Of a stretch of DNA of 39,338 nt, positions 4,956-37,955 are shown piece after piece. The position numbers and the translations under genes are program-made. Source of the stretch: a virus; IMG/VR virus record IMGVR_UViG_3300018876_000038, positions 1 to 39,338 of that record; one strand, written 5' to 3'. Each line of letters opens with the position of its first letter. Within the stretch, counting starts at the first letter, position 1. The notes beneath the pieces are model-generated. The model had not been told where the DNA came from, searched no databases, and was given only the letters and a program-made list of their open reading frames with translations.

Positions 4956-6803
4956 ATGGGATTTAAAAGTTTTTCAAACGATCTTGGTAAAGGGAGTATT
5001 AAAGCTGCTAAAGATGCACTTGGTATCGCAGGTGATCCTGAAGAAATTAGTGCAGAAGACGCTAAATTAAAAAAGCAGATTGATGAAACCTCAGGCGTTG
5101 ATTGGACATTAGTTGATCTTGAGAATCCAGACGGTGTAATTAATGAATTTGTTAAATCAAACATTAAAAACATTATAAAGGGAAGTGCTATTCAAAAATC
5201 TAATCTTGAATCGACAAGCACAAACTCTAGACCAATCCCATTTGCTGAACCTGCTGACGGCAAAAAATCATATTATGTAAAGGACGTAGATTCTATGAAG
5301 TATAAGAGTACTGCTGCAGGAGGTACCAACAAGAAAGGCCATAATAAAGATGGTACTACAAAAGGAGCTGAAATCAGTGAAGGTGCTAGACCATACTCGA
5401 TATTTAATAGATTTTCACTTGTCAATTATAGGGGTAATCAATTAACTGGAGTCTCTAAAGGATATGATTCTACTAGTGGACAATATCACAAGATTAATCA
5501 AGAAGAATTGGTTAATCCAAGTGCTTCCAAAATTATAGAAATAACAAGTAGAGATGGAGAAAATAGAGGGTACAAATATGACTACTCTGATTTTGCATTA
5601 GCTAGATACTATGGAAAAATAGCAAATAATCAGATGATTACTCTTAGAAGATTTGCATTCCCAGTAACTGATGATATTATAACTCCTAAAATTTTAGGCG
5701 ATGACGGAAAAATGATAGATAATAAGCATCCTGATATTGCTCGCGCTATAACTTTTTTGGGAGAGACTCCTGGAAATAAAATTGAAGACATATTAAAATT
5801 CACACATGGTTACAAATGGAAGAACGCTGAAGCTGATGTACAAACACTACAAAGTCAAAGAGGACAGAGTGGTGGTAAATTTGGAGCCCTTGTAAATGGT
5901 AGTACATTTTTATCAGCCGCTTCAAACGCATCTGCTGGAAAAGACGCCGTAGCATCTAATTCTGCTGAAAAAAATGCAGGGTATGATGCGTTTTCAAATA
6001 CATATCCAAACCATGTATTCGGACCTCTTAATGTTATTAAAGATACTCTTGTTAGAGAAAAAGGATTAACATTTGAACAAGAATTTACACTTAAATTTGA
6101 ATATGAATTAAGAAGTTTTGGTGGTGTTAACCCTAAAATTATGATGTTAGACCAAATGGCTAACATACTGGCTTTAACATTTAATACTGCACCTTTCTGG
6201 GGAGGAGCTGTTCGATATACTGGAGGTGGCGGAGCTGCCAGACCTTTAGGAGATCTTGCTAAGCTAAAAAGCGGTGATTATACTGGATTTTTAGGTTCTG
6301 TTATGAAAGACATGGGTGATATGTTTAAGAGTGTTGGTACTGGAATATCGAACTTAATGAAGGGTAAGGATTCAAAGCTTTTAAATAATCTTGTTGGTGG
6401 TTCATTAATGAAAATGTTTAATACACCCCAAGGAGGACAGGCAGCTAACGCCTTACTTACTGGTGATCCTACAGGTGCATGGCATGTAACTATTGGTAAT
6501 CCATTAAATCCAATAATGGTTGTTGGAAATCTAACATGTCAAAGTACAGATATACATTTTGAAGGAGGAACTGGGGTTCAAGACTTTCCTGAAAGAATGG
6601 TAGTTACTATTAAATTAAAACCAGGAAGGCCTAGAGATAGAGCTGAAATTGAATCAATGTTTAACGCTGGTAGAGGTAGATTTTATCTAACACCAAACGA
6701 TGGAGTTGATATTAATGAAACTTCAGATACAAGTGCATATGGTAACAAGGATCGTAAAGGTAATGCATATGTCGATAAATTTAGAAAATTAGCAACAGGA
6801 TAA
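4956..6803 (+). CDS. Tail-tube-like baseplate protein (gp48/gp54-type candidate)
   Basis: A 615-residue virion protein. The clearest signature is at residues about 508-590: a GAWHVTIGNPLNPI segment, a VVGNLTC strand, DFPERM, then KPGRPRDRAEIESMFNAGRGR. This pattern (hxxTIGNPxxPIxxxxNL...GRPRDxxxIExMFxxGxGR) is one I associate with tail-tube or tube-initiator proteins of large myophages, equivalent in role to T4 gp48/gp54 at the junction of baseplate and tube. It is about twice the length of those T4 proteins; the extra part includes a Gly/Ala/Ser-rich middle (about residues 300-345). It opens the baseplate gene cluster and overlaps the gp53-like gene by one base. Role inferred from motif and neighbours. 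Confidence 0.7.
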   Translation: MGFKSFSNDLGKGSIKAAKDALGIAGDPEEISAEDAKLKKQIDETSGVDWTLVDLENPDGVINEFVKSNIKNIIKGSAIQKSNLESTSTNSRPIPFAEPADGKKSYYVKDVDSMKYKSTAAGGTNKKGHNKDGTTKGAEISEGARPYSIFNRFSLVNYRGNQLTGVSKGYDSTSGQYHKINQEELVNPSASKIIEITSRDGENRGYKYDYSDFALARYYGKIANNQMITLRRFAFPVTDDIITPKILGDDGKMIDNKHPDIARAITFLGETPGNKIEDILKFTHGYKWKNAEADVQTLQSQRGQSGGKFGALVNGSTFLSAASNASAGKDAVASNSAEKNAGYDAFSNTYPNHVFGPLNVIKDTLVREKGLTFEQEFTLKFEYELRSFGGVNPKIMMLDQMANILALTFNTAPFWGGAVRYTGGGGAARPLGDLAKLKSGDYTGFLGSVMKDMGDMFKSVGTGISNLMKGKDSKLLNNLVGGSLMKMFNTPQGGQAANALLTGDPTGAWHVTIGNPLNPIMVVGNLTCQSTDIHFEGGTGVQDFPERMVVTIKLKPGRPRDRAEIESMFNAGRGRFYLTPNDGVDINETSDTSAYGNKDRKGNAYVDKFRKLATG

Positions 6804-10013: not shown

Positions 10014-10700
10014 ATGGCTGAAGGAAGAGACGATATTAAAGGCACACATTGGATTGGCGAGGTTGTGGACAACACAGATCCTAAAAATCTGGGAAGATGT
10101 CGTGTTAAGGTGTTTGGCAAATTTGATGATCTTCCAGATGAAGCTATTCCATGGGCAACTCCAATGAATAGAGATTTTGTAGGAGCACATCATACACCAA
10201 ATATTGGTACTGTAGTTGCTGTCAGATTTGACAACGGTAACATCTATCATCCAGAGTATTGGTTTCAAATAGATCAAAGTAAAGATTTAAAGGCGGACAT
10301 CCTAGATAACTCAGCATCACCACATGATGTTGTTTCTTTAGTTTATGATTCTACAAGAAATGTAAGAATATACCATTCAGAAGAGGATGGTTTAGTAATC
10401 ACTAGAGGAACTGGCGCAAAAGAGAGACCTATAATTCAATTAGATGAGAATGGAATAATTAAAATATCTTCAGACGATAAAATATTTTTAGATGCTGGAA
10501 ATGTTTATCTATCAAACACTGGAGAATCCTCAGAAGATACTAGCGAACCAACTGTTAGAGGAAAATCTTTAGAGGCATTTCTTAATATTTTTAAAGATTT
10601 GTATAATAGTCATATACATCCAACTCCTACTGGACCGAGCGGTAAGCCGATTATTCCATGGAATCCAGTGCATCCCCCGTATCAACAAGAAAATAAATAG
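10014..10700 (+). CDS. Baseplate central spike, gp5/gpV-like OB-fold protein
   Basis: A 228-residue protein. Residues about 10-90 are an OB-fold: WIGEVVDNTDPKNLGRCRVKV, PWATPM, GTVVAVRFDNGNIYHPEYW. Residues about 115-165 are short alternating beta strands typical of the triple-stranded spike stalk (VRIYHSEEDGLVIT, IIQLDENGIIKISS, KIFLDAGNVYLS). The C-terminus has SHIHPTPTGPSGKPIIPW, a common ending of phage spike proteins. The spike sits under the hub and pierces the outer membrane. Unlike T4 gp5 there is no lysozyme domain between the OB-fold and the stalk, so cell-wall digestion must be supplied elsewhere. It ends in TAG. Confidence 0.82.
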   Translation: MAEGRDDIKGTHWIGEVVDNTDPKNLGRCRVKVFGKFDDLPDEAIPWATPMNRDFVGAHHTPNIGTVVAVRFDNGNIYHPEYWFQIDQSKDLKADILDNSASPHDVVSLVYDSTRNVRIYHSEEDGLVITRGTGAKERPIIQLDENGIIKISSDDKIFLDAGNVYLSNTGESSEDTSEPTVRGKSLEAFLNIFKDLYNSHIHPTPTGPSGKPIIPWNPVHPPYQQENK

Positions 10701-12952: not shown

Positions 12953-14269
12953 ATGTCAAAAGACGTAAAACAAAAAAAACCAAGAATCGGAGAATTATCT
13001 AAAAAATTAGTACAAGAAGTACCGGTAAATGAAGCTGATGTTGAAGTAATTGAGGCTAAAGAAGATGTAGATTCTACATCACAATTCTATGACGATGAAG
13101 GAAACTTCATGTGGGACGCTTATGAAGCAACATGCCCGTCACAAACAAGAAAACCAAATCCACATATTAAAACTAGAAGGGGTGAAAGGGTTTATTCTAG
13201 AGAATCATATGCTCAGGAGCTTTATGATTTAATGGACAACTATTACCAGTCTAACGGAGAATCTTTAATATTTAAAGTAAATATTGGTGAAACTCTTTCA
13301 GGAACAGTTATTGGAGTCGACACTCAATGGTGTTCAATCGATGTCGGTTATAGAGAATCGGTATATGTTGATATGACTAAAGAGTCTGAGATATCAAGGT
13401 CTAAATTGGTACCAGGTTCTTCAATTGATGTTCAAATCACTGGAGATCAGAAATCAAATCGAAGAGGATTTATACTAGGATCAGTAGAAGCTGGTATTAA
13501 AGCAGCAACGACTAGAGAAATTCTATCATCTATTGAAGAGGGTAATACAGCATATGTTGGAGTTGTTAAAAACATGATTCAAAATGGAGGGTATATTATT
13601 GATATCCAAGGTGTAGAATGCTTTATGCCAGGTTCATTAGCTGGAATTAATAAGCTAGTTGATTTTGAATCTATCATCAACACTGAAATGTATGTCGTAC
13701 CTGTAAGTTACTCACCAGAAAAAGGAACTATCGTAGTTTCACACAGAGCGTACTTACAAGCTTTAATTCCAAATAAAATTGAAGAAGTATCTTCAGATCT
13801 AACAGTTGTTAGGGAAGGTAATGTTACTGGATCTGCTAAATATGGTGTATTTGTTGAATTTGAAGGTTGTCTTACCGGGATGATTCACATAAATGATCTA
13901 GATCCTGAAACATTAAAATTACATAAGTCTAGAGAGATTAAACCAGGAGACCAAATTCAATTTAAAATCAAAGAGGTTATTAGTAATAATAAAATTACGC
14001 TAACTCAAGTTGAACAACAAGAGGTCGTAGATCCTTGGAAATTAATTTCTGAAAAATATACGTCATTCCCTGTTGAGGTTGCAGGCGTTGTTAAGTCTAC
14101 TAAAGACTACGGTATATTTTTAGATGTTGGTGAAGGTGTTGTTGGGTTGCTCCACATATCAGAACTTCCAGAAGGATTTGACAAATCAACAATCCAAAAG
14201 AATGATACAATCACAGTTAAAATAACCAGAATAGAAACTGAAACTAGAAAGGTATTTTTAGAACTATAA
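12953..14269 (+). CDS. Ribosomal protein S1-like protein with four S1 domains
   Basis: A 438-residue protein. After an acidic, probably flexible N-terminus (1-105) come four S1 OB-type RNA-binding repeats at about 110-178, 196-265, 283-352 and 370-438. Repeats 3 and 4 are textbook: GNVTGSAKYGVFVEF with GMIHINDL, and GVVKSTKDYGIFLDV with GLLHISEL. Bacterial S1 binds mRNA leaders and helps load them on the 30S subunit; it has six repeats in E. coli. A phage copy could bind phage mRNA, replace or compete with host S1, or act in RNA protection. It sits inside a baseplate cluster with its own promoter-like element and a strong terminator, so it is probably made late and in quantity. It could act away from the ribosome; no N-terminal S2-binding element was identified. 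Confidence 0.88.
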   Translation: MSKDVKQKKPRIGELSKKLVQEVPVNEADVEVIEAKEDVDSTSQFYDDEGNFMWDAYEATCPSQTRKPNPHIKTRRGERVYSRESYAQELYDLMDNYYQSNGESLIFKVNIGETLSGTVIGVDTQWCSIDVGYRESVYVDMTKESEISRSKLVPGSSIDVQITGDQKSNRRGFILGSVEAGIKAATTREILSSIEEGNTAYVGVVKNMIQNGGYIIDIQGVECFMPGSLAGINKLVDFESIINTEMYVVPVSYSPEKGTIVVSHRAYLQALIPNKIEEVSSDLTVVREGNVTGSAKYGVFVEFEGCLTGMIHINDLDPETLKLHKSREIKPGDQIQFKIKEVISNNKITLTQVEQQEVVDPWKLISEKYTSFPVEVAGVVKSTKDYGIFLDVGEGVVGLLHISELPEGFDKSTIQKNDTITVKITRIETETRKVFLEL

Positions 14270-14294: not shown

Positions 14295-14324
14295 AAGCCG
14301 AGATTTTTTAGTCTCGGCTTTTTT
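14295..14324 (+). terminator. Rho-independent terminator after S1 gene
   Basis: Bases 14295-14303 (AAGCCGAGA) pair perfectly with 14312-14320 (TCTCGGCTT), with an additional T-G wobble closing the loop. The arm ends in a T tract (14319-14324). It is GC-rich against a very AT-rich background and lies 25 bases after the S1 stop. It isolates the S1 gene from the downstream amidoligase. Confidence 0.9.
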
Positions 14325-14353: not shown

Positions 14354-14363
14354 GATATATAAC
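14354..14363 (+). promoter_or_regulatory. Candidate late promoter for amidoligase gene (GATATATAAC)
   Basis: Lies just after the S1 terminator and 30 bases upstream of the 14394 ATG. A promoter is expected here because the terminator would otherwise silence the downstream genes, which makes this one of the better-supported copies of the element. Confidence 0.48.
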
Positions 14364-14393: not shown

Positions 14394-15686
14394 ATGAATA
14401 ACTTAAATAATTCTAATATATTAGAAAAGGCTTTAGTAGGGGTTGAGTTTGAATTTTATTCAAATAAACCTATAAAAACAACAGCTAAAGAATTGGCCGA
14501 TCTTATCGGTAAAAAAATTAGAGTTGAAGATAAGGCACATAGTGATTTTGAGGTTACTTCTGATGAATTCAAGATAGAACCAGATTTAAGTGGCGGCGTT
14601 AAATTAATGGAATTAGTTACAGGCCCATTACCTTATTTTGCAGCACGTTTAATGATTATTAATGTATGTCTTTGGATTGACAAGAACGGGTATACTAATG
14701 AAAGATCTTCAATTCACTTGAATCTATCCTTTGATGGAAAAAAACTGGATGACAAGAATAGAATATCTAAAATGAATGTTCTTAAATTTATTTTAGATTT
14801 TGATGAAGATCAAGTGTTTAAGTTTTTCCCAAATAGAGAAAATTCAGCGTATGCCAAATCAATAAAATTCGTTATACCAAAGGATGATTTTTCTATATTT
14901 GATGGTAAAAATATAAATCAACAGAATTTTATTTATCCACAAACAAAATATTACGGCATAAACTTTGAAAAAAGAGTTAAAAATTATTTAGAATTTAGAT
15001 ATGTCGGAGGTACTGATTGGCAAAAGAAAACAACAACAATACTCCATTTAATTGACAGATTTTTAGTACAATTATGGAAATCTACAGAGTCGACTCAATT
15101 CACACAACTAAATGCTATAGAATTGAATAAAATAATGTCTAAGAATCAAAATATAATTGACGCTAGAAGAGATTGGCAAACAATTAAAAAGAATTTTAAA
15201 GACACTAATTTTACAGTTGATTTAAGTGACGATCCTAAAATAGTTTCTTTATATTGGAGTAATATAAAAGAAAAGGTGGCTAAATTATTTACACATGGTA
15301 ATTTTACAAAAGGCGAAATTAACTATGATAGCGATACTGGTAGAGTACAAGTTAAAAATGGTAGATTAGATTACTGTGTCGACCTCGAAGGATATGAATT
15401 TGTGAATTGTTTTTTAAGAGGCGAATTTAGATTTTGTGATATGTTTTCATGTCAAATTGAGGGTTCTGATATAGATTCTTGTAATTTTTATTCAGGATCC
15501 CAACTAACTTCTTCAAAAATAAAAAGCTCGTACGTTCACCAAAGCTCAGTTGCTGATGATTGCTATGTTTATGGGAGCGGAGCATTTAAAGGTACTATGA
15601 ATGGTGGTATATTTAGAGAAGGAGGATATTCTAAAAAAACAACAGTTTTTAATCAAACTGAAATAATACTATCAACACCAATATAA
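14394..15686 (+). CDS. Amidoligase-family enzyme with beta-helix-like C-terminus
   Basis: A 430-residue protein. Residues about 13-230 match the amidoligase branch of the glutamine synthetase/glutamate-cysteine ligase fold (Amidoligase_2 type). Visible motifs are GVEFEF with metal-ligand candidates E18 and E20, the FKIEPDLSGG...ELVTGPL block (59-79) with D64 and E73, SSIHLNLSF (105-113) with H108, and YLEFRYVGGTDW (198-209) with E200 and R202. Such enzymes use ATP to join a carboxylate to an amine, forming peptide or isopeptide bonds. The substrate is unknown. Residues about 330-410 are a run of short Cys/Ser/Phe-containing units (FVNCFLRGEFRFCDMFSC, IDSCNFYSGSQL) resembling a pentapeptide-repeat right-handed beta-helix. 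The gene lies between the S1 homologue and baseplate genes. The family call is strong; a role in virion-protein modification is inference. Confidence 0.82.
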   Translation: MNNLNNSNILEKALVGVEFEFYSNKPIKTTAKELADLIGKKIRVEDKAHSDFEVTSDEFKIEPDLSGGVKLMELVTGPLPYFAARLMIINVCLWIDKNGYTNERSSIHLNLSFDGKKLDDKNRISKMNVLKFILDFDEDQVFKFFPNRENSAYAKSIKFVIPKDDFSIFDGKNINQQNFIYPQTKYYGINFEKRVKNYLEFRYVGGTDWQKKTTTILHLIDRFLVQLWKSTESTQFTQLNAIELNKIMSKNQNIIDARRDWQTIKKNFKDTNFTVDLSDDPKIVSLYWSNIKEKVAKLFTHGNFTKGEINYDSDTGRVQVKNGRLDYCVDLEGYEFVNCFLRGEFRFCDMFSCQIEGSDIDSCNFYSGSQLTSSKIKSSYVHQSSVADDCYVYGSGAFKGTMNGGIFREGGYSKKTTVFNQTEIILSTPI

Positions 15687-15701: not shown

Positions 15702-16532
15702 ATGAGTGATATTTATATAGGAAGTAGCGACAACACACAAGATCCTCAATTTGATAACAATGCGTGTTTCAACACGTTTGTTAACGAATTAGCAGATGAA
15801 ATCACAGGTTCTTGTATGATTCCGATGAATCTTCCGAAAAAAGAGGTTCAAAATATAGTTAAGCGTGCAAAAAAGTGGTTTTATAAAAATTATGAATATT
15901 CTGTTAGAGAAAACTTCATAGTTCTTCCACAGTCATTGTTTAAATCTGAACATTTTAAAAGAACAAGAAGTTTTACGTTTGAGCCACCAACCGATGGTAG
16001 TGGCGGTGAAATCTTTTCAGTATTTGCATGTGCTCCAGTTGGCGCAAACTGGGGAGGAAGTATGGATATTAACTTTACTCAAGGTGATTTTGCAATTGAA
16101 AGAATGATGTTAGGTGGAACATACGGTGGTTCTAAAACTGGATATGCTGCTGAAAACTTGCAATACTATGTAATTAATGAAAGTTTCTTTGATTTAGCAC
16201 GTCAAATTATTCACAACCCTATAAGTTTTCAATATAGTCAATTAACACATGAATTGAGATTCACTGGTGAAACTCCATATAAAGATGTTGTTCTTGAGGT
16301 TTATGAAACTATTCCAGACTGTGCTCTTTTTAGTGATGAAGCCTTTTTTAGATACTGTGCTGCGAAGATTAAAATTTCTTTAGGACAAAAACTTGGAGTA
16401 TTTGGATTTACTCTTCCTGGAAATATTCAAGTAAATGCTGATTTAATTCAAGGAATGGGTGAAGGTGAACTAGAGGCAGTAATTGAAGAAATCAAGTCAG
16501 ATGAGGGTACTGACTGGATGATGCACTCTTAA
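15702..16532 (+). CDS. Putative virion structural protein
   Basis: A 276-residue protein located directly before gp25. Residues about 44-75 are helical with a basic, aromatic segment (KRAKKWFYKNYEYSVREN), followed by beta-rich sequence (FIVLPQSLF; RSFTFEPPTDG). A Gly-rich loop region (GGSMDINF, MLGGTYGGSKTG) precedes a LRFTGETPYKDVVLEVYETIP strand pair and a helical YCAAKIKISLGQKLG. I associate this layout with tail or neck structural proteins of large myophages but cannot name a T4 equivalent. The acidic C-terminus ends MMHS. It follows the amidoligase by 15 bases and may be co-transcribed with it. Confidence 0.65.
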   Translation: MSDIYIGSSDNTQDPQFDNNACFNTFVNELADEITGSCMIPMNLPKKEVQNIVKRAKKWFYKNYEYSVRENFIVLPQSLFKSEHFKRTRSFTFEPPTDGSGGEIFSVFACAPVGANWGGSMDINFTQGDFAIERMMLGGTYGGSKTGYAAENLQYYVINESFFDLARQIIHNPISFQYSQLTHELRFTGETPYKDVVLEVYETIPDCALFSDEAFFRYCAAKIKISLGQKLGVFGFTLPGNIQVNADLIQGMGEGELEAVIEEIKSDEGTDWMMHS

Positions 16533-16924: not shown

Positions 16925-18745
16925 ATGGCAGAATTTAAATTTTTATCGACGGCTAGAATTAAAGCTAGTGAAATGATCGCAGATACTCGATCTTATATTG
17001 CTAGGGTGTATGGTCGTGCCGGTGAGTTATTTACTACAGCATCTCCATTTTCTCAAATATTAGATGTTTTATCCCAAATATCACAATTGATATTTTATTA
17101 TATTGAAGATTCTACAGTTGAACAAAATATTTTAACAGCAAATAATCCAGAATCAATATATGGTTTATCAAGACTTGCAGGACATGATTCATTTAGGGGT
17201 TCTGCTGCAATTGGAGAAATTCAAGTAAGATTAAATACGTCTGCTGGAAATGAAATAGCAGGAGATGCTCTAAATATTCCAGCAAATACTATTATTAAGG
17301 CTGAAAAAAATGGACTTGAATATATTTTAAGAACTAATCAAGACCAATTTAGAATTGAAAAAAGCAATTCAAACTATATAACAATACCGGTTATTCAAGG
17401 TAAAATTGAATCTCAAACCGCAACTGGAACCGGAGAAAGTTTACAATCTTTTAATTTTATAATAAAAGGAAACACAGACCATCATCACGTTAGAGTCACA
17501 GTTAATAGTGAATTGTGGACTAAATATGATTCTTTATATGATATGAAGGTTGGTACAAAGGGGTATCTGGTAAAGACTGGTATAACTGGAGGACTTGATA
17601 TTTATTTTGGAAATGGTTCTTTTGGAGAAATCCCAGTAGAAGGTGCAACTATAGATGTTGAATATTTAGTAAATGATGGATCTTTAGGTAATTTAACAGG
17701 ATCAAGAGATATTAAATTTAAATTTGAATCTGAGGGATTTGATTCTATCGGCGAAAGTTATGATTTAAATAAATTATTAGAAGCTAATTTTACAGCTGCT
17801 CCAAAAATGGGATCAGATCCTGAGAGTACTGAGTTGACAAAATTATTAGCTCCACTACAATCACACTCATTTGTGTTAGCAACTCCAGATAATTATGAGG
17901 CATTTTTATCCAAGTATGGAATGTTTTCATACTTAGATGCATATAACACAACAGACGATGGATATATTGATGACGATAACGTTATATACTTATTCATGTT
18001 GCCTGATACAAAAAGAAAAATAACTAAAAATAACGATTATTTTAATATTCCAGTAGATGAATTCTTTTTCTCAGAAGACGAGAAGAATGGAATACTTTCA
18101 ACATTAGAAAATAGTGGAAGGCAAATGGTTACGACTGAAGTAAAAATAGTCGAACCTAAGGTTCAATATTTTAGAATGGATGTTAAAGTTAGATATTTTG
18201 AAGGTTACAGTAAATCAAATCTTCATTCAGAAATTAGAGCAAAGATTTCCGATTATTTAATTAATATTACTCGTAGAGATCGTTTACCTAAATCAGACAT
18301 TATTGCACTTTTAGAAGGCGTTGAAGGAATAGACTCAGTAAATGTTATGTTTACTTCTGAAAAAGAAGAAACAGCAAGAAGACTTGGGTATTATGTTTCT
18401 GAAACAGTAACTGTAACACCAAGTACGCCAACACTAGAAGGTATCGGAAATGGAAAACAAAAATATGTTTTCTTTAAAAGAACGGTTACCAAAAATCAGG
18501 TTAATTTTGAACCAGGTGCACCGCTACCGGAGAATGTAATTAACTTAGATTCTTTTGGCGATATTATTCTTGAAAAAGAAGAGGTTGCTCTATTTAGAGG
18601 TGGTTGGCAAGATAGATCTGGTTCTATTATACCAGATGACGCTAGAATGGGAGAACAAGCAGCACTTTCAGTTTACTTTGAAGAACCTGCAATTAAAAAC
18701 ACTGTATTTACGAAATTACAGGCACAAAATAGAAAAGCATTGTAA
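16925..18745 (+). CDS. gp6: Baseplate wedge protein gp6/baseplate J-like
   Basis: A 606-residue protein following gp25. The N-terminal 130 residues are helical (AEFKFLSTARIKASEMI...LDVLSQISQLIFYYIEDS), typical of baseplate J/gp6 proteins. A beta-rich core follows, containing DIYFGNGSFGEIP, TIDVEYLVNDGSLGN and FVLATPDNYEAF. Then comes the conserved alpha/beta C-terminal domain with EVKIVEPKVQYFRMDVKVRYFEGYS, IRAKISDYLIN and LEGVEGIDSVNVMF. Gp6 forms the ring of wedge dimers at the baseplate core. The last about 110 residues are an extension rich in Glu and Pro. The length is close to T4 gp6 (660). Its stop shares one base with the next start. Confidence 0.83.
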   Translation: MAEFKFLSTARIKASEMIADTRSYIARVYGRAGELFTTASPFSQILDVLSQISQLIFYYIEDSTVEQNILTANNPESIYGLSRLAGHDSFRGSAAIGEIQVRLNTSAGNEIAGDALNIPANTIIKAEKNGLEYILRTNQDQFRIEKSNSNYITIPVIQGKIESQTATGTGESLQSFNFIIKGNTDHHHVRVTVNSELWTKYDSLYDMKVGTKGYLVKTGITGGLDIYFGNGSFGEIPVEGATIDVEYLVNDGSLGNLTGSRDIKFKFESEGFDSIGESYDLNKLLEANFTAAPKMGSDPESTELTKLLAPLQSHSFVLATPDNYEAFLSKYGMFSYLDAYNTTDDGYIDDDNVIYLFMLPDTKRKITKNNDYFNIPVDEFFFSEDEKNGILSTLENSGRQMVTTEVKIVEPKVQYFRMDVKVRYFEGYSKSNLHSEIRAKISDYLINITRRDRLPKSDIIALLEGVEGIDSVNVMFTSEKEETARRLGYYVSETVTVTPSTPTLEGIGNGKQKYVFFKRTVTKNQVNFEPGAPLPENVINLDSFGDIILEKEEVALFRGGWQDRSGSIIPDDARMGEQAALSVYFEEPAIKNTVFTKLQAQNRKAL

Positions 18746-28407: not shown

Positions 28408-31400
28408 ATGAGCATTTACAGCCCAGGAGATCCAGAATATTTAGGATTTATAGACAATAATGGTGATGGTATATCTGATATAGGTGGTGCCATATCACCT
28501 ATTGAAAATAAATCGTTTGCGCTACTAAGAACAAACCCTAGATTAACCACCAATATTAAAGTTATTGTTGATTCGAATGAATCTATGTATTTAGGCTCGT
28601 TTAAGGCAAATAAGGAACTTTCAAAAGTAGAGTTTCAAAAATATCCTATTAAGTCCTCGGGTAGTTTTTCAACAGATATTGCAAAATTCTATAAAAAAAT
28701 TCCGCTGAGTTTAAGATACCAAATTCTTAAAAAATACTCCGACCTTACAGTATATTCTGATTTTGCTAATCAATATGAAACGCACTATCAATATGGGGCA
28801 ACCCATAATTCTACAAAATTATATGACGAACAATATAGATTATTTGCACCAATCTGGTTAGATAAAAATACTCCAAAGAAATTTGTAGTATATAGAGTGG
28901 AGGATGTTGACTATAAAGAAAAATACGAAGAAAACTTAGAGGGTCAAAATAATAGAGTGTTAGAACTTTTAAACAATGCTACTATTATTAAAACATTTGA
29001 TTTAACAAAAAATTCTGAAATAGGAAAATACATATATAAGCATGTAAATGATAAAGAATTTCCAAACGGTTCGATAACAATGAACTTTAAAGAAAGAGAG
29101 AAATCTTTCTATAATGGTATTGATATTGTAAAAGGAGGTTTTGCTAGTAAATCAGAAGTTCTAGACACATCATACACTTCAGTGGATTACCCTGAAATAT
29201 TAAGTAATGAAATAATAACTAAAGGTTTTGCAAGACATGGTTTGGTTTCTGCCAATATTATGAACTTAGAATTCCTGTTTGATGATTACACTGCAGAAGA
29301 TTATAAAATATACAGATATTTTGGAATTTACTGTGATGATTTTGACGAGGGTTCATTTCGTATAGATAATATTGATTCGTTAGGTTTTGTTTCACCGAAT
29401 GTGAATTCATACAAAACTTATTATAATATAGAAAACACATCACTGACAGACGTTGATATGTTATTAAATGAGGAAGATATATTAATTCCGACTTTAAATT
29501 ATATTAAAGATAAAAATGGTAAATTCTACCATGTTAAGAATGGATCTAAAAATATTAAGCAGTATGATTTACCAATTTCTTTAAATGGTTCAAGTATTTC
29601 TGATTTTAAAGGTTTTTCAAAAACTGGAAAAAGGCTTACTGCAATTAAAGGAAAATCAAAGGCAAAGGGGTTTATAAAAATTACGATTAATCAAAACCCA
29701 AATGTTAATGATAGATTTTTTATAGGGGATAAATCAGAAATTGAAATAGAGAATAATAATTTAGGTCAATTCACATTTATAGCAGATAACTCAATCCCTG
29801 CTGGATCGTTTGTTAACAATAGGTTTTCGAGTATTGGTAATCTAGAACAGGTTGCTAGTGCAATTTCGCAGTCTATAAAAAGTGTTTCTCTAATTGAATA
29901 TAAAGTGTACGTTAACGGTACCTCGATTATAATTGAAGATTTTTTAGATGGTAATAGAAGAAGACAAACTGCGTTTGGTGTGTTTAAACTAAACAACACT
30001 AATTTTATAACAATAAATGACGGTGAATTAGATACTGTTAAAATGGACCCATCTATAATTTCACAATGGGATATAATTACGCCGATAGCAGGTTCTTCAA
30101 ATAATGAATTAATTTATGTTGATTATAGAGAAATTGGAGAATTAAATATTGGTGAATATATTAAATCCAAAAATATAGATAAATTTTCTAAGATTATTGA
30201 AATTAATAAGGATCCTTTTGATGATAATTTATGGAGGGTTATTTTAGAAAAACCAGTTGAATTACCTAAAGATATGGTATTAGATTTGTATGAGATTTAT
30301 TCAACAAAACATGGTAAATTTGCAGCATACGATTTTAAAGACTTTGATTTTGATTTTTATTCAAATAGAAATTCTAACACAGGAGATATATTAAAATCAA
30401 TTAATATAGAAGGCTTAAAAACAATTTCAGTATTAAGCTATCCAGAAATCACAGCAGGAGGTGGCGTTGACGAAAATGTAGATCAAGGTTTCAATGCAAT
30501 TGTATTATATAATGTGGACGCTCAAGCAGACATTAGTATTGGTGATTTTGTTTTACTTTCAACTGGAGAAAAATTAGAAATTACTGATGTCTATTTATCT
30601 GGATATCTAACCGGGACGGCTACTTATATTGAAATAGACACAACAACACCATTACCTACAGCAATTAGTGGACAATACCCTACATTATTTTATAATGGTG
30701 GACTTAACATTGTAGGTTCGGATTACGAAGAATATACCGAACCAATTGATTATTTTAGTTGGTTGACACCAGTATTAAGTGATACCGGAGAGGATGAAGA
30801 AATTTTAGAAACTATTTTAAATGAATATGATAGACTTAATGAAAATGAATTAAAAGATACTGCTCTAAAAAGTAGAATAGTTCCTACCATTTGTAAATTT
30901 CAATTAAAGGATGCTAGCAATGCTAAAAATCTAGAGTATGTTTTAAATGCAAGTGAAGCTTTTGGTTCAGATAATATGTCACCTAATATTGAGGTTTCTT
31001 CAGAACGAAATACGGAATATTTAAATATGGAGCACTTTCATATTAATAAAATTCCTAATTATTATTTAGACTATCCAGAAATAGATTTAATGAATTATTC
31101 CACTATTAATATGGGAGGAACCTCAGAGTATTTAACACCTGATAATTTAAAGGATATTAATTTTAATTATTTTAAACACGCTCTGTTATTCAATGGTTAT
31201 TTAAAGGATGATGGTTCAATCGCTAATCCAAAGGAATGGATTGATAATAAATTAAAAGTAAACTACTCTAAATTTAGAGGAGGAAATACTCAAGGAGATT
31301 CTTCAACTGTTTTTAGAGGACTTAGATATAATTTTAAGAAAAGAAAGGAGAGTATTAAAGAAGAGCCTAGTGATTTCATAAATACTTTTGAAGTTAATGA

Positions 31401-33183
31401 TTATAAATTTGCAACGATTGTAAATTACACAGATACGTCAACTGATGAAAACACGATTACATTTGAAGTTATAAAGAATGACGTTTTCAAATTTATATGT
31501 GTCTATATAAATATTAAGGTAATTGATAATGATGTAAAGTATTTAGACAGATATTCAGTATATTCTCTTAACGATATTACTAAAAATGGAGAGGTTATAG
31601 ACACTGATATACCATTTGATATCGATATGGCGGGTTCTTCTTGGGGTTCTGTTGATGGAGAGGCTACAATAACCGCTTCCGTTTTCTCAATTGCTGATGG
31701 CAGTGCTGATTTTGAAAAATACATAACAGTAAACTCTGTTGGAGAATATTCTTGGGTTGCTTTCGAATTCGGTGGAGAAACATGGGCAATGAAAGTACGT
31801 AGAGTTATTGATAAAAACAGAATAATAGTACAGGGTTATCCATACAAATGGGACACTGTTAATAATATACCTACAACAAGTAGGCTTTCGTCTTCTGACT
31901 TTGGTTTAATTGGACTTGGAACTCAATTTACATATTTAAGTGCCGGTAGTAATGAATTCTCAAATATATTAGAACAATTAAATGCATATAACTTTGCGGA
32001 AAGATTTAATAAATACGGAGACATAGAATATACTACGATTTTAAAAGATGGAAGCATCGTTAAAGACCAATTTGTATTAAGTGTTGAGAGTGGTACTGAT
32101 TTTATAAAGCCATCACTTGTTAAGCCAAATACCGACCCTGAAAAACCTAAAGCATATCAATTAAAGTCAGGTTCTATAGGAGATGTTATTGTAGAAAGAG
32201 AAGATGGTGGTTATATTACTGTTTTAAGAAGAATGAACGGAGATTATAATCCTATTTTTAATAAAGTTGTTGGTTTTACAGACATATATACAAGCTATAA
32301 AATAGCAGAAGAGACTATTGATGAGAGAAAAAGATTGATTTATAATAAATTTAATTATCAAGGAATATCATTTGAATCTCATAAGAATAGAGAAAACTCA
32401 TTTGGATATATTGAAAATTATTTTTATCATAAAGTAAATGACGAAAATTCTAAAGGTGTATTAAAATTGTCGCAAACAACCGATAAACTACCAATATATC
32501 CTAAAATTGGAGAAATTGCGATCGATAAAAAGAATATAAATTTATTTAAATCTAAATATGCGTTTGATTTCTTTAGTAAATCTTTTTCTGCGGGTAGATC
32601 TGAATTAGTAAATGGAACTTTAAGTCCAATTGAAAAGGAAAACTTTTTTGCCTCCACAATAATGAAGGTAAAAGATTCATATGATATAACAAAATACTCT
32701 CAAAATAGAGAGGATAATATCGAATCTTTAGATAAAATTAGATTGAATAATTTAAATGAAAATTCAATACATTGGACCGAGGATGATAGTAACATATATG
32801 CTGATTTTTATTTACCAAAGGCAATATCGAATGAACTTAAAGAGGACTTTATTCAAAATCAATTCGCGACTTATGTTGATGCTATAAATTCTTTTGGTGA
32901 TAAGACTTCAATTGAAGATGATTTAGACATTTATATAGACAATAATATATCTACTAGATTTATTATAGATACAATAAGGGTTTATGGTATTGAACAGAAG
33001 GGATTTGAAACAGAATTTACGTCAGTAATTGATGTTGCGGATTTAAAATTAAATAATTATAGAGAACTAACAAATTACGCTATACAAGGATATCAAGGAG
33101 ATGCACTTAGTTTTAGACTAATATATAATAAAAGACCTGGATATTCTTACAAATTAAGAGTCCATATTAAAATACAAGCTTAA
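28408..33183 (+). CDS. Giant virion structural protein, 1591 residues
   Basis: The longest gene of the window. Near the N-terminus, residues 16-24 (DNNGDGISD) have the spacing of an EF-hand/dockerin-type calcium loop, with candidate ligands D16, N18, D20 and D24. Residues about 40-170 contain NIKVIVDSNESMYLG and an IPLSLRYQILKKYSDLTVY helix. The remainder is mostly Asn/Asp/Lys/Tyr-rich beta sequence with acidic stretches (DFKDFDFDFYSNRNS near residues 644-658) and ends in a RPGYSYKLRVHIKIQA strand. The repeated alternation of short strands and polar turns fits a long tail-fibre or baseplate-peripheral protein. I recognise no family. It lies between the 1236-residue protein and the collagen-like fibres and uses a tandem TAATAA stop followed directly by the next ATG. 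Confidence 0.62.
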   Translation: MSIYSPGDPEYLGFIDNNGDGISDIGGAISPIENKSFALLRTNPRLTTNIKVIVDSNESMYLGSFKANKELSKVEFQKYPIKSSGSFSTDIAKFYKKIPLSLRYQILKKYSDLTVYSDFANQYETHYQYGATHNSTKLYDEQYRLFAPIWLDKNTPKKFVVYRVEDVDYKEKYEENLEGQNNRVLELLNNATIIKTFDLTKNSEIGKYIYKHVNDKEFPNGSITMNFKEREKSFYNGIDIVKGGFASKSEVLDTSYTSVDYPEILSNEIITKGFARHGLVSANIMNLEFLFDDYTAEDYKIYRYFGIYCDDFDEGSFRIDNIDSLGFVSPNVNSYKTYYNIENTSLTDVDMLLNEEDILIPTLNYIKDKNGKFYHVKNGSKNIKQYDLPISLNGSSISDFKGFSKTGKRLTAIKGKSKAKGFIKITINQNPNVNDRFFIGDKSEIEIENNNLGQFTFIADNSIPAGSFVNNRFSSIGNLEQVASAISQSIKSVSLIEYKVYVNGTSIIIEDFLDGNRRRQTAFGVFKLNNTNFITINDGELDTVKMDPSIISQWDIITPIAGSSNNELIYVDYREIGELNIGEYIKSKNIDKFSKIIEINKDPFDDNLWRVILEKPVELPKDMVLDLYEIYSTKHGKFAAYDFKDFDFDFYSNRNSNTGDILKSINIEGLKTISVLSYPEITAGGGVDENVDQGFNAIVLYNVDAQADISIGDFVLLSTGEKLEITDVYLSGYLTGTATYIEIDTTTPLPTAISGQYPTLFYNGGLNIVGSDYEEYTEPIDYFSWLTPVLSDTGEDEEILETILNEYDRLNENELKDTALKSRIVPTICKFQLKDASNAKNLEYVLNASEAFGSDNMSPNIEVSSERNTEYLNMEHFHINKIPNYYLDYPEIDLMNYSTINMGGTSEYLTPDNLKDINFNYFKHALLFNGYLKDDGSIANPKEWIDNKLKVNYSKFRGGNTQGDSSTVFRGLRYNFKKRKESIKEEPSDFINTFEVNDYKFATIVNYTDTSTDENTITFEVIKNDVFKFICVYINIKVIDNDVKYLDRYSVYSLNDITKNGEVIDTDIPFDIDMAGSSWGSVDGEATITASVFSIADGSADFEKYITVNSVGEYSWVAFEFGGETWAMKVRRVIDKNRIIVQGYPYKWDTVNNIPTTSRLSSSDFGLIGLGTQFTYLSAGSNEFSNILEQLNAYNFAERFNKYGDIEYTTILKDGSIVKDQFVLSVESGTDFIKPSLVKPNTDPEKPKAYQLKSGSIGDVIVEREDGGYITVLRRMNGDYNPIFNKVVGFTDIYTSYKIAEETIDERKRLIYNKFNYQGISFESHKNRENSFGYIENYFYHKVNDENSKGVLKLSQTTDKLPIYPKIGEIAIDKKNINLFKSKYAFDFFSKSFSAGRSELVNGTLSPIEKENFFASTIMKVKDSYDITKYSQNREDNIESLDKIRLNNLNENSIHWTEDDSNIYADFYLPKAISNELKEDFIQNQFATYVDAINSFGDKTSIEDDLDIYIDNNISTRFIIDTIRVYGIEQKGFETEFTSVIDVADLKLNNYRELTNYAIQGYQGDALSFRLIYNKRPGYSYKLRVHIKIQA

Positions 33184-33186
33184 TAA

Positions 33187-35457
33187 ATGCCTATTAATAT
33201 TAAAGAAATATTTAAAAGCGACCTGGATCCAAACAGCAATGACTGGTGGTCTATAGACAAAACTGATAAGATTAATCATAATTTTAAACAGTTAACATCA
33301 GGTGGTATGACAGGACCAATGGGTGCTCAAGGATCCTTTGGTATTAGCGGGTTTATGGGGGATCAAGGGCCTCAAGGATTTAAAGGTGCTTTAGGTGATT
33401 TAGGCTCGCAGGGGAATATTGGGATTACTCAATGGGTTGTTGCTGAAGGAACGGCTTCAAACCCTCTTTTAACGGATTCTTTACATTTATTTCCGAATAG
33501 ACAACTCCCAATAGAATATGCACCGACTGCGATGAGGATTGGATATCCGAATCCTTCATCATCATTACCTGAAAGTTACTATGGTAGTGTTTTAACTTTA
33601 AACTCACCAAATATTCCTTCTACGCCATGGAAAAGAAATAATTTAAAATTAACGACTCAGTTAATTGACGCCGTTGGACATGAGACAACAAATATTAGAA
33701 CTTCAGAGCATAGATTATATAAAAGTACAACGAGCACTATACTCCCAACCGTATATGAATATGGTAGAATAAGAAGCAGTTCTCCAGGATTTATTAATAG
33801 AACTAAACTTAATTTAGGAGATACTTATTATATAGAGGGACAGACTTCGTCTGTAAAATCAGATTTAATTAAATTAAATCACCAAGAGCTTACAATAAAT
33901 AATAAGCTAACCACTAGAGATTTTTATGCAAATAAAGATTTTATGATAGAGTCGGGTGCAGCTGCCGATAAAGTTTTAATGAGTGTTAACCCAATAGGCC
34001 AAGTAAAATGGGTTGATAAATATTATGCTTTTCCTGGATATTTAGAAGGTATGGTTATATCAATACCGGATTGGGCATTTAATTCTACTAATTTTGAAAT
34101 ACAAACACAATATACACAATCTGCAAGTGGAGAACCTATTAGATTTAATTACGGTAGGGGTAAAATTGGTGGACAATATGAGGGTTGGTATTTATGTAAT
34201 GGTAAAAAATGGAATTCAAGCGCCGGTATTAACGAGACACTTGTTCCAAATATGCACTATGTTGAGTTAAATATTGGTAGCAATGATAATCAACAACAAG
34301 TTATTGATACTAATGACAGTTCTATTATGGGTGGTCACCCTATGGAAATGAACGCGATATACAAAGGTGGTAATAAATACGATATTAATTACAACAACAC
34401 GTTTCTTAATAACAATGATAGTCAAGATACTATTAATTTATTAGAAGATTCTTCGAAATCATATTCTGTTAGTAAAATGATTCATATTGTTAAATTAGGG
34501 TTTAATGATTTAGAATGGGAAGATTCAACCTCTGTGCCCCCAACTCTAAATAATATATCGTTATACGGTCCTTATAGCAATCCGGATGATACATGTAACG
34601 ACTTGACGACTAGCGCATTTAGATGGGATGGACCATCTTCTTTTGCATACTGGTCTACTTTTACATCGCCATATAAACTGTACCAATTAACAACATATAC
34701 ATACGCTCCTTCTGGATGGTATAGATTGTTTGGTGAAACCACTTGTAGATATTGGGATCAATCAACAGGTTCATTTACTTCAGCAACACCTAATACATAC
34801 TCATGTCCTGTTAGTACACAAATTTCTGCTGCATATAGCCAAGACGTTAATGGTGTTGATAATGGTTCAACTGGGTCATCTACATTATTAAATATTAATA
34901 ATACTGATTGGAGTGCGGCAACTTCAATAAAATATCCAATTTCTGGAGGATTGGCAAACGCTGGTTGGTATAGAATATATGACGCAGCGACATCAACATA
35001 CGGTTCTAGAAGATATTGGAACGGTACCAGTTTTGACGGTGAAGAAATTAACTTTAATTATGTTAATACAATTTCTTTAGGTACAGATGGCATTAAAGCC
35101 CTTACTTCAAGTACTGGTGCGATAGCATGTAGCAGCGTGTTTGGCGTAGGGGGAATAAGTTTATACGTTGCTTCTAACAACGCACCAGTTGGTTGGTCAG
35201 ATATAGGTTCTATAAACCCAACAACTGCTATAATGTTCTATGTACATAAAAACTGGGCGACTACCACTATTAAAAGGACTCCTCTTGTTAAAATAAAAAA
35301 TCAACCAGCACCTGGATCTACATCAGCAACAGTAACGTACCTTGCTGATTATACACTGGGAACGTTTAATATATTTACAGGAACTTTTGATGTAGTATCA
35401 GAATCATATCAGAACGTTGGTATTTTTAGTAATCCAAACGGAGGTGCAGACTGTTAA
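33187..35457 (+). CDS. Tail fibre with collagen-like repeats and collar domain
   Basis: A 756-residue protein. An N-terminal docking region contains DKINHNFKQL (about 27-36). A collagen-like run of Gly-X-Y triplets spans residues 40-81 (GPMGAQGSFG, GDQGPQGFKG), implying a trimeric stalk. A shaft follows, then a tail-collar-type domain around residues 325-420 (YEGWYLCNGKKW, LVPNMHY, MGGHPMEM). The C-terminal 280 residues contain two related units with GWYR (APSGWYRLFGETTCRYW and NAGWYRIYDAATST), possibly receptor-binding repeats. It is paralogous to the next gene in its N-terminus, triplet stalk and collar. It probably binds the host surface. The Cys-rich C-terminus could form disulphides. Confidence 0.78.
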   Translation: MPINIKEIFKSDLDPNSNDWWSIDKTDKINHNFKQLTSGGMTGPMGAQGSFGISGFMGDQGPQGFKGALGDLGSQGNIGITQWVVAEGTASNPLLTDSLHLFPNRQLPIEYAPTAMRIGYPNPSSSLPESYYGSVLTLNSPNIPSTPWKRNNLKLTTQLIDAVGHETTNIRTSEHRLYKSTTSTILPTVYEYGRIRSSSPGFINRTKLNLGDTYYIEGQTSSVKSDLIKLNHQELTINNKLTTRDFYANKDFMIESGAAADKVLMSVNPIGQVKWVDKYYAFPGYLEGMVISIPDWAFNSTNFEIQTQYTQSASGEPIRFNYGRGKIGGQYEGWYLCNGKKWNSSAGINETLVPNMHYVELNIGSNDNQQQVIDTNDSSIMGGHPMEMNAIYKGGNKYDINYNNTFLNNNDSQDTINLLEDSSKSYSVSKMIHIVKLGFNDLEWEDSTSVPPTLNNISLYGPYSNPDDTCNDLTTSAFRWDGPSSFAYWSTFTSPYKLYQLTTYTYAPSGWYRLFGETTCRYWDQSTGSFTSATPNTYSCPVSTQISAAYSQDVNGVDNGSTGSSTLLNINNTDWSAATSIKYPISGGLANAGWYRIYDAATSTYGSRRYWNGTSFDGEEINFNYVNTISLGTDGIKALTSSTGAIACSSVFGVGGISLYVASNNAPVGWSDIGSINPTTAIMFYVHKNWATTTIKRTPLVKIKNQPAPGSTSATVTYLADYTLGTFNIFTGTFDVVSESYQNVGIFSNPNGGADC

Positions 35458-35495: not shown

Positions 35496-37955
35496 ATGCC
35501 AATAACTATCAACTTAAAGCAGCTTGAATACACTGATGGTGATAACCTTAAATTAGATAAGGTTAACTACAATTTCGACCAATTGGTTGCAAATGGAGGA
35601 GGTCCACAGGGAACTACGGGGGATCAAGGAGCTACTGGTTATCAAGGCTCTACCGGATATCAAGGTTTTCAAGGTGAAAAAGGAGATCAGGGTTCTCAAG
35701 GAACTCAAGGTTCTGCAGGTGCAACAAGATGGGTAAGAATTAATGGTGTTGCCGGCAATTTTACAGCAGATACATTATTACCTGCTAATGATAATACGAT
35801 AAACCCAAACGCACCAGTTGTCATTATTGGACATGTTTCTGGTGATGCAACTTATGCTGCAGAACAGGCAATAAATCCAGCATCGGGTCAAATACCTTCA
35901 CAGTTTATAATAAATAGAAAAAGCTATTTTAAATCAAATATGTCTCTAACATCGGATGATGTTGCGAATAATTCATATGATTTTAAATTAGAATCTATTG
36001 CAGATTCTTTAGGTAATATTACAACAACGCTATCACAAGGATTTTCACTTATAAATTCTCAAGGAAATATCAAGGTGTTTGCAGATACTCATGATTTTTA
36101 TTCAAATCAAACAGGAACTTCACTTTTAAATATTTCTGACGATGGTACATTTATTTCAGTAGATACTAAAGCTGAGGGAGATGTATACATTAAAAAAGAT
36201 TTATATATTGAAACAACATATTCTGGTGTTGGAAAACCAGACACTGATAAAATAGCAACTTCAGCAGATTCTTCTGGTAAAGTAGCTTTTAAAACTATAA
36301 GTGAACTTGGTGGAGGAATTCCAGTAGGTACTATAGTTGGTATATTACCAAGCATTTTCTCAGACGATAGTTACTTTATACAAGACCAATTAAGCCTATC
36401 GGTTCCTGTAAATAGTTTAATTAATTTTACAATTGGAAGTGGTATTGGCGATTATTCAGGTTGGTATTTATGTAATGGTCAGACTTGGACTGATGGTACA
36501 GACCAATTCCAAGTTCCAGATTTAAATACATATAATTATACAGTACAAGATAATACTGATACTACATCATTTACAAGTCAAGGTGGTGAGATTAAATCAG
36601 ATGCTAAAAAGACTATTATTGGTGGAGCTGAAATTGAAATGACCGCAACTTATGCTGGATCAAATACATATAATATATCAACAGTTAAAGATTTTACTGA
36701 AGATATAATTAAAGGAGAACTTGGAGGAGGAACTGATTATACAGTTAAAAAATTACCTCAAATAATTTATTTAGGTAAATCTGGTTTATACTTCCAAATA
36801 ACTGGAACACCTAGTCCAACATATACTAATACATACACTTTTAATTTTGTAGACGATACTACATATCCTGGAATTTCAATTTTACCAACAAGCTTTACGG
36901 TAAACGCACCATTCGGTGCTTTATCAGCACCACAACAAACACAACTTGCACTAGAAGCACCTACTGGATATAGGTTTACTGGCACTGGATATGATTTAGA
37001 TTGGACACTTCCTACTGGAGTTACAATACAAAGTGGCCCGACATATGGTGGTGTAGGAAACTCAACAGACGGTTGGTCAGAAGTACAATATGTTTTTAAA
37101 GTTTCTCAACAGCTTCAAAATCAAGTTAATCCAATATATATTAACTTTGAAGCCGACATGTCAGGCGCGTTAACGTTACTTAATCAAGTTGCTCAAACAT
37201 ATATTTATAACGCTAATTCTAATTGGTCATATGATGCTGCCCAACAAACTAAAACTGGTATTATAGGAGATTCAGTTGCATTAGACGCAATCACTTTAAC
37301 AGCAGACCCTGGTAGATATTTCAATGATACGATAACACCTACGGTACCTTTTGCGTTCTATGGTAGTGGAACTCAAAGAAATGACTTTATTGTTAGTAGT
37401 CATTCATATGGTGCATATAATGGAAGTGGACAAGCTACTGAATTAACATTGAATATAACTGACACTGATTTTGCTAACGAAAATGAAGTGCCCGGCGGAT
37501 TACCAAGCAGTACTGCAACTACTTTAAACTTTGGTGCAACAACATATTCAATGTTACCTACACTAAGTCCTAATGGTACTTCGGGTCAATTATTTAATGA
37601 CTCTTCAAGTGTAGTTTCACAGACATATCAAGTTACCAATAATACAGGTTCTACAATATATGTTGCTGCTTGGATTCAAAACTTTACAAACAATGTTAGC
37701 TTTCCACAATTTTCTAGCATTGGTGTAACATGGAACAGTAATTCAAAATATATTACTGGTGATGAGAATACAACTATAAACGGAATCACAACGTTAACTA
37801 CAATTAATCACCTTGGTTCGGTAAGTAGCTTAATGGAGGTTGATAATCTTTCTGGAGACAGTAGTTGGTTTGCTAAATTAATGTGGACAAATAATCCATC
37901 ACCTACACAAAATCCTTGGGATTCTGGACAAACGCAATGGTATTCATTCTTATAA
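35496..37955 (+). CDS. Second collagen-like tail fibre with collar domain
   Basis: An 819-residue paralogue of the preceding fibre. The N-terminus carries DKVNYNFDQL (21-30). Gly-X-Y triplets run from residue 36 to about 77 (GPQGTTGDQG, GSTGYQGFQGEKG), and directly after them GATRWV parallels GITQWV of the other fibre. A shaft domain is followed by a collar-type domain around residues 317-400 (SGWYLCNGQTW, QFQVPDLN, IGGAEIEMTATY), and the C-terminal about 400 residues are beta-rich, Thr/Ser/Gly-rich and unlike the sister protein. Shared stalk and collar with different tips is what is expected of fibres with different receptors. It is followed after 3 bases by the spanin-like gene. Confidence 0.78.
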   Translation: MPITINLKQLEYTDGDNLKLDKVNYNFDQLVANGGGPQGTTGDQGATGYQGSTGYQGFQGEKGDQGSQGTQGSAGATRWVRINGVAGNFTADTLLPANDNTINPNAPVVIIGHVSGDATYAAEQAINPASGQIPSQFIINRKSYFKSNMSLTSDDVANNSYDFKLESIADSLGNITTTLSQGFSLINSQGNIKVFADTHDFYSNQTGTSLLNISDDGTFISVDTKAEGDVYIKKDLYIETTYSGVGKPDTDKIATSADSSGKVAFKTISELGGGIPVGTIVGILPSIFSDDSYFIQDQLSLSVPVNSLINFTIGSGIGDYSGWYLCNGQTWTDGTDQFQVPDLNTYNYTVQDNTDTTSFTSQGGEIKSDAKKTIIGGAEIEMTATYAGSNTYNISTVKDFTEDIIKGELGGGTDYTVKKLPQIIYLGKSGLYFQITGTPSPTYTNTYTFNFVDDTTYPGISILPTSFTVNAPFGALSAPQQTQLALEAPTGYRFTGTGYDLDWTLPTGVTIQSGPTYGGVGNSTDGWSEVQYVFKVSQQLQNQVNPIYINFEADMSGALTLLNQVAQTYIYNANSNWSYDAAQQTKTGIIGDSVALDAITLTADPGRYFNDTITPTVPFAFYGSGTQRNDFIVSSHSYGAYNGSGQATELTLNITDTDFANENEVPGGLPSSTATTLNFGATTYSMLPTLSPNGTSGQLFNDSSSVVSQTYQVTNNTGSTIYVAAWIQNFTNNVSFPQFSSIGVTWNSNSKYITGDENTTINGITTLTTINHLGSVSSLMEVDNLSGDSSWFAKLMWTNNPSPTQNPWDSGQTQWYSFL

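Follow-up and report, generated by a model that had tools for sequence, protein, structure and literature searches.

The window analysed here, a virus record of 39,338 bases that is itself a fragment, contains at positions 14394-15686, as originally predicted, an open frame of 430 codons which encodes an amidoligase continued by a C-terminal beta domain. The genes, domains and signals around this frame are the following:

10014 to 10700, + strand: baseplate spike or hub gene with an OB domain, upstream (PF04717, E 6.9e-7; phrog_37871, E 3.3e-15)
12953 to 14269, + strand: gene with two S1 domains, upstream (PF00575, E 7.6e-20)
14295 to 14320, + strand: intrinsic terminator in the gap between the S1 and amidoligase genes (11-pair stem, then a T run)
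14354 to 14361, + strand: GATATATA motif, which may serve the amidoligase-baseplate unit as a late promoter (recurrent in the window and in homologues)
14394 to 15686, + strand: amidoligase/beta-helix gene (P0001; ATG start, product of 430 residues, PF12224 above the cut-off)
14430 to 15293, + strand: catalytic domain with predicted glutamine-synthetase/GCS fold and a helical extension, residues 13-300 (AlphaFold2, Foldseek)
15303 to 15653, + strand: C-terminal beta domain, residues 304-420, with a predicted short pentapeptide-like beta-helix at about residues 330-410 (AlphaFold2 strands)
15702 to 16532, + strand: head-tail adaptor Ad2-like gene, directly downstream (phrog_211, E 8.6e-9)
16925 to 18745, + strand: baseplate wedge subunit gene, in the same run of genes as the amidoligase (phrog_219, E 1.7e-36)

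The adaptor gene starts 15 nt past the amidoligase stop, and a gene for a protein of 117 residues separates it from the wedge gene. Elsewhere in the window there are a dCMP deaminase gene (1949-2464; phrog_174, E 2.7e-52) and two adjacent large genes (33187-35457 and 35496-37955) with a collagen-like stretch near the N-terminus just under the Pfam cut-off, which are likely to encode tail fibres.

The window protein matches the Pfam family PF12224 (Amidoligase_2) with 29.8 bits against a cut-off of 22 (E 7e-7), in an alignment restricted to residues 13-66 (profile positions 3-56 of 245). The coverage of the profile is wider in relatives (positions 5-168 at locus L066 and 46-228 in Agrobacterium phage Atu_ph07), and 17 of 40 homologues match it at E <= 0.1, while PHROGs contained no match to the 430-residue protein. 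The structural comparisons were based on an AlphaFold2 model built from 40 sequences (mean pLDDT 90.9, pTM 0.83). When this full-protein model was compared with the PDB using Foldseek, glutamine synthetases came first (E 1.5e-4, probability 1.00); among viral models (BFVD) the top match was an uncharacterised phage protein, matched over nearly its full length (E 1e-36, TM 0.84), followed by many entries named amidoligase (E 5e-12 to 1e-4). The catalytic domain of a distant, mahaphage-like lineage (about 31% identity), modelled by itself, matched glutamine synthetase (E 8.6e-7) and YbdK (2.8e-4), so that the structural kinship with amidoligases and GCS enzymes for which a check had been proposed was indeed recovered. 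The TM-scores to solved structures are low (about 0.26-0.44), and the match is therefore claimed for the superfamily only and not as closeness. Neither one protein nor a profile retrieved a relative of the catalytic domain in a sequence search of the PDB, and when profiles were compared directly with E. coli GlnA and GshA no significant match resulted, perhaps because one side was a single sequence. At the superfamily level, a glutamine-synthetase-type fold of the window amidoligase is a well-supported prediction from these models.

Four motifs make up the putative active site, each listed with its counterpart in E. coli GlnA:

14439 to 14456, + strand: GVEFEF (E18, E20), conserved; counterpart GPEPEF, E129/E131
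14577 to 14624, + strand: EPDLSGG...ELVTG, residues 62-77 (E62, D64, E73); counterpart E212/E220
14709 to 14732, + strand: SIHLNLSF, residues 106-113 (H108, N110); counterpart GMHCHMSL, H269
14988 to 15011, + strand: LEFRYVGG, residues 199-206 (E200, R202); counterpart IEVRF, E357/R359

In GlnA, residues E129, E131, E212, E220, H269, H271, E357 and R359 are metal ligands or catalytic residues. As read from the GlnA sequence, they lie in the strings GPEPEFFLF, HHEVATAGQNEV, GSGMHCHMSL and RRIEVRFP, to which GVEFEFYSN, IEPDLSGGVKLMELVTG, SSIHLNLSF and LEFRYVGG correspond in order in the phage protein; the residues were paired by motif order and by the fold match, rather than by structural alignment. 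Among 109 distinct homologues, E20, E73, N110 and E200 are invariant, E18, D64, H108 and R202 are kept in 108 each and E62 in 106. All eight tested active-site positions are found together in 106/109 homologues, and the metal ligands plus the catalytic arginine (E18, E20, E62, E73, H108, E200 and R202) are kept in order in the same proportion. Since E18, E20, H108 and R202, the residues on which the original prediction had placed its case, are conserved and the fold match was found, the description of the protein as an intact-looking amidoligase stands. The window gene and four relatives give a dN/dS of 0.08-0.12 overall, low over both domains, which is an approximate figure because synonymous sites are near saturation. 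Judging from the modelled fold and the conserved motifs, most members of the family are very probably active ligases. The fold and metal-ligand motifs are shared with glutamine synthetase and with YbdK/GCS2-type ligases, from which the phage enzyme differs in its low identity (about 10%), in TM-scores of about 0.4 or less, and in showing no sign of a role on free metabolites.

One allele departs from this pattern. The amidoligase of contig L004 (2867-4156) retains an open frame of 430 codons and carries the substitutions E18K, E62K, D64G, H108Y and R202K. In DNA comparison with contig L003, the neighbouring genes are 88-97% identical and the amidoligase gene 77.6%, with the lowest identity in the first third. 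Over residues 1-240, the L004 branch has accumulated 36 amino-acid versus 14 silent-only codon changes (7 versus 12 on the window branch), and over residues 241-430 the corresponding figures are 9 versus 8 (8 versus 13 on the window branch). Hypermutation was considered as the origin of the allele and rejected, since G>A and C>T changes do not outnumber their reverses. Our reading of these substitutions, in a single contig, is that catalysis may have been lost or relaxed while the C-terminal half is still constrained. A phage whose enzyme lacks the catalytic residues indicates that the activity is not indispensable in every phage. It also lends something to a mainly structural role, in which the helix would bind a tail component and the ligase domain would be a retained or moonlighting fold: five active-site-motif residues are gone from L004 with the C-terminal half evolving normally, and a strict operon position (see below) is what a structural gene would be expected to have. 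Nevertheless, L004 is one contig, and a purely structural protein does not require the joint conservation of eight active-site positions seen in 106/109 homologues; we regard this explanation as unlikely.

The C-terminal part had been described as resembling a pentapeptide-repeat beta-helix, a likeness that holds in the modelled strand spacing and falls short in the family profiles. In the AlphaFold2 model, short strands occur at residues 349, 354, 359, 364, 370 and 375, which is the spacing of a pentapeptide beta-helix. The window protein has no pentapeptide Pfam match, and among its relatives no pentapeptide model reached its cut-off (the best Pentapeptide_4 score among those printed was 26.8 against 38 bits, at locus L075), with sub-threshold Pentapeptide_4 matches in 17 of 40 members; profiles of AlbG, MfpA and Qnr matched the C-terminal part with E-values of 0.006-0.5 only. 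The phage helix thus has in common with these pentapeptide-repeat proteins the five-residue periodicity, and differs from them in being short, irregular and under all Pfam cut-offs. A separate protein of 495 residues with W-x-x-G-x-F repeats (L163:11204-12691) gives a weak match to the profile of the C-terminal helix.

The two-domain amidoligase is found in hundreds of related contigs, phages of 462-735 kb included, according to IMG/VR scans that covered 70 loci, then the best 80 of 523 confirmed relatives, and then further distant loci. By tblastn, the named relatives are the metagenomic phages LR756500-504 and LR745206 (462-735 kb), in almost full-length alignments of 31-40% identity, and Agrobacterium phage Atu_ph07, with 28% identity over a part of the window protein (239 residues). 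The window itself is a fragment of a huge phage, probably with a Bacteroidota host, and a pattern-based search of a collection of genomes from 84,980 species confirmed no host homologue. Gene order around the enzyme recurs across the loci: the S1 gene is the next recognised upstream gene within 1.5 kb in 117 of the 154 loci with enough upstream sequence, and the adaptor gene lies within 100 bases downstream in 126 of 167 homologous loci. In order to avoid selecting on the enzyme, loci were also fetched by their adaptor and wedge proteins (the best 80, near relatives favoured), and in these the amidoligase stands directly upstream of the adaptor gene wherever there is enough upstream sequence (97/97), a count that speaks for constancy within the clade only, because many of the contigs overlap the earlier set or each other and near relatives were favoured.

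The mahaphage-like lineage (relatives of the 634-735 kb phages) has the two-domain protein, at about 30% identity, in a rearranged gene order, with the enzyme mostly divergent from the tail genes and in several orientations. Even so arranged, a homologue of a window tail gene lies within 6 kb in 33 of 36 loci, mostly a match to the window gene at 4956-6803; the three exceptions are L163, L167 and L075, where the nearest tail gene is 9.8 kb away from the enzyme in L075. The 4956-6803 gene has no family name of its own and was counted as a tail gene because it stands beside gp25-like and spike-like genes in both lineages; the tail neighbours in the mahaphage-like lineage were scanned against PHROGs, which named only some of them. 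No S1 gene was found near the enzyme in this second lineage, where a DHH-family gene often follows the amidoligase downstream. Several proteins beside the amidoligase in these loci (L076, L135, L138, L145, L155, L159 and others) have MKKYxxFxNEE-like starts, which resemble T4 capsid-targeting N-termini; such starts occur in 18 of 475 ORFs versus none at an internal control position, for a pattern set after the examples were seen and in partly redundant loci. The location within the baseplate cluster, noted at first from one window, proves on comparing gene neighbours in related phages to be far more constant than one window shows. The amidoligase is absent from phages Lak-B4, PAU, PTm1, pT24 and MaF61, four of which share baseplate genes with the window; it is therefore a trait of a clade and not a universal tail part, and tail assembly as such does not need it.

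Hairpins comparable to the window terminator are present in 56 of 92 scored homologous gaps between the S1 and amidoligase genes. All six copies of the GATATATA motif in the window are on the + strand, and five are intergenic, 35-102 nt before a gene (at 1379, 4921, 12901, 14354 and 28306). The motif is also found upstream of the amidoligase gene in homologues; it may be a late promoter. In the clade of the window, the amidoligase heads the baseplate operon and is apart from the S1 transcription unit. The placement between S1 and baseplate genes thus holds for the window as a matter of position, with an S1 link that is clade-specific and cut by the terminator. The S1 gene and the amidoligase were considered as a functional pair, which was dropped because of the terminator between them in the window and because no S1 gene was found near the enzyme in the mahaphage-like lineage. 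In some loci (L046, L050, L053, L059 and also L049), small ORFs with the start MKLTExxLREIIxEEL are inserted between the two genes.

Amidoligases (PF12224) are known in phages and already annotated there; what is new in this case is the fusion to a helix, the missing partner enzymes and the location in a tail operon. Our search, outside of which most subscription journals lay, found no description of a fusion between a pentapeptide repeat and an amidoligase. With the PF12224 amidoligases of phiEco32, LUZ24-like, tf and OM43 phages the window enzyme shares the family, the motif order ExE / E / H.N / E.R and the structural matches in BFVD; it differs from them in its solitary place within a late tail operon, in carrying a beta-helix and in that no partner was found. 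In the LUZ24-like phage UFV-P2, the early genes include the amidoligase together with genes for a COOH-NH2 ligase, a GATase and an ATP-grasp protein (PMC3890496), and in Clostridium prophages the amidoligase is paired with a gamma-glutamylcyclotransferase. A plasmid of Aliarcobacter butzleri (L177:7311-8741) has a distant amidoligase-like gene immediately after a gamma-glutamylcyclotransferase gene. The distant amidoligase of Atu_ph07 (AUZ94978) is one gene from the portal gene; by protein numbering it should be gp196 and falls within a gene cluster described by the authors on that phage as rich in virion proteins (PMC6102473). It is 500 residues long, with an extended and differently built N-terminal part, and is without the C-terminal helix.

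These systems bear on the possibility that the enzyme modifies the host by attaching amino acids or peptides to the host's proteins or surface polymers, for instance to block superinfection. Host modification has been proposed for phiEco32-type amidoligases, as cited in PMC10580990 and PMC11318856, and the family is present in many kinds of phage. However, the known systems adjoin GATase, ATP-grasp or cyclotransferase genes, and the UFV-P2 copy is in an early region, whereas the gene studied here is fixed in a tail operon. None of these partners gave a Pfam match in the 29 window proteins scanned (2454-2645 and 28408-33183 being outside the scan), and GATase_6 was absent from the 15 records searched, for a control search positive in 14/14 genomes. 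No second amidoligase or GATase partner was found elsewhere in the phage, the amidoligase part of this search being weak because PF12224 misses several true homologues. We consider host modification improbable, if less so than a mainly structural role. The tail-operon position would also suit a tail-delivered effector, which would travel in the tail or head, enter the cell by injection and act there early, and the weak relative of the C-terminal helix in the L163 protein would agree with it; no packaging mark was identified on the enzyme, and this is the explanation to which we give the least credit.

The reading that we prefer, with a probability of about 45% as a whole, is that of a late ATP-dependent ligase directed by its helix to a tail or virion protein. 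In this mechanism, the enzyme would join carboxylates to amines, a chemistry that follows from its glutamine synthetase / gamma-glutamylcysteine ligase fold. Its synthesis would fall late in infection, with its gene leading the baseplate operon. It would form an acyl phosphate from a side-chain or terminal carboxylate and then couple that carboxylate to an amine through an amide or isopeptide bond. Docking would be the task of the C-terminal beta-helix, and the partner would most likely be a protein of the tail, the baseplate or another part of the virion that is being assembled at that stage. The parts of this proposal differ in strength. The fold, the motifs, their conservation, the operon position and the long-term linkage to the tail module are computational observations, and there is good support for the enzyme class. 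Gene order and signals speak for late expression linked to the tail genes, the timing being deduced from the gene order, the terminator and the promoter motif. That the enzyme is expressed with virion assembly and serves it, and not host metabolism, has in our estimate an even chance, and the narrower claim that its target is specifically a tail or baseplate protein falls somewhat short of that. The substrate and the type of product (an added amino acid, a peptide or a cross-link) we infer. Action on a tail or virion protein would explain most economically why the position is fixed, why partner enzymes are missing and why there is a helix of a docking type, although gene position is only a guide to function. 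A bolder and rather unlikely form of it is that an ATP-dependent enzyme recruited by its helix makes amide or isopeptide bonds on the tail or baseplate proteins of huge phages, cross-linking or tagging their contractile tails. The cross-links of the HK97 capsid are self-catalysed, unlike such enzymatic cross-linking of a tail.

Should virion proteins be the substrate, the largest known phages would mature their tails with an enzymatic covalent modification of which we found no description. Should the host be the target, a modification system hitherto known from multi-gene clusters would exist here in a late form that needs a single protein. In both cases, there is one clear gene to test in a widespread group of aquatic phages, with the L004 allele as a built-in comparison.
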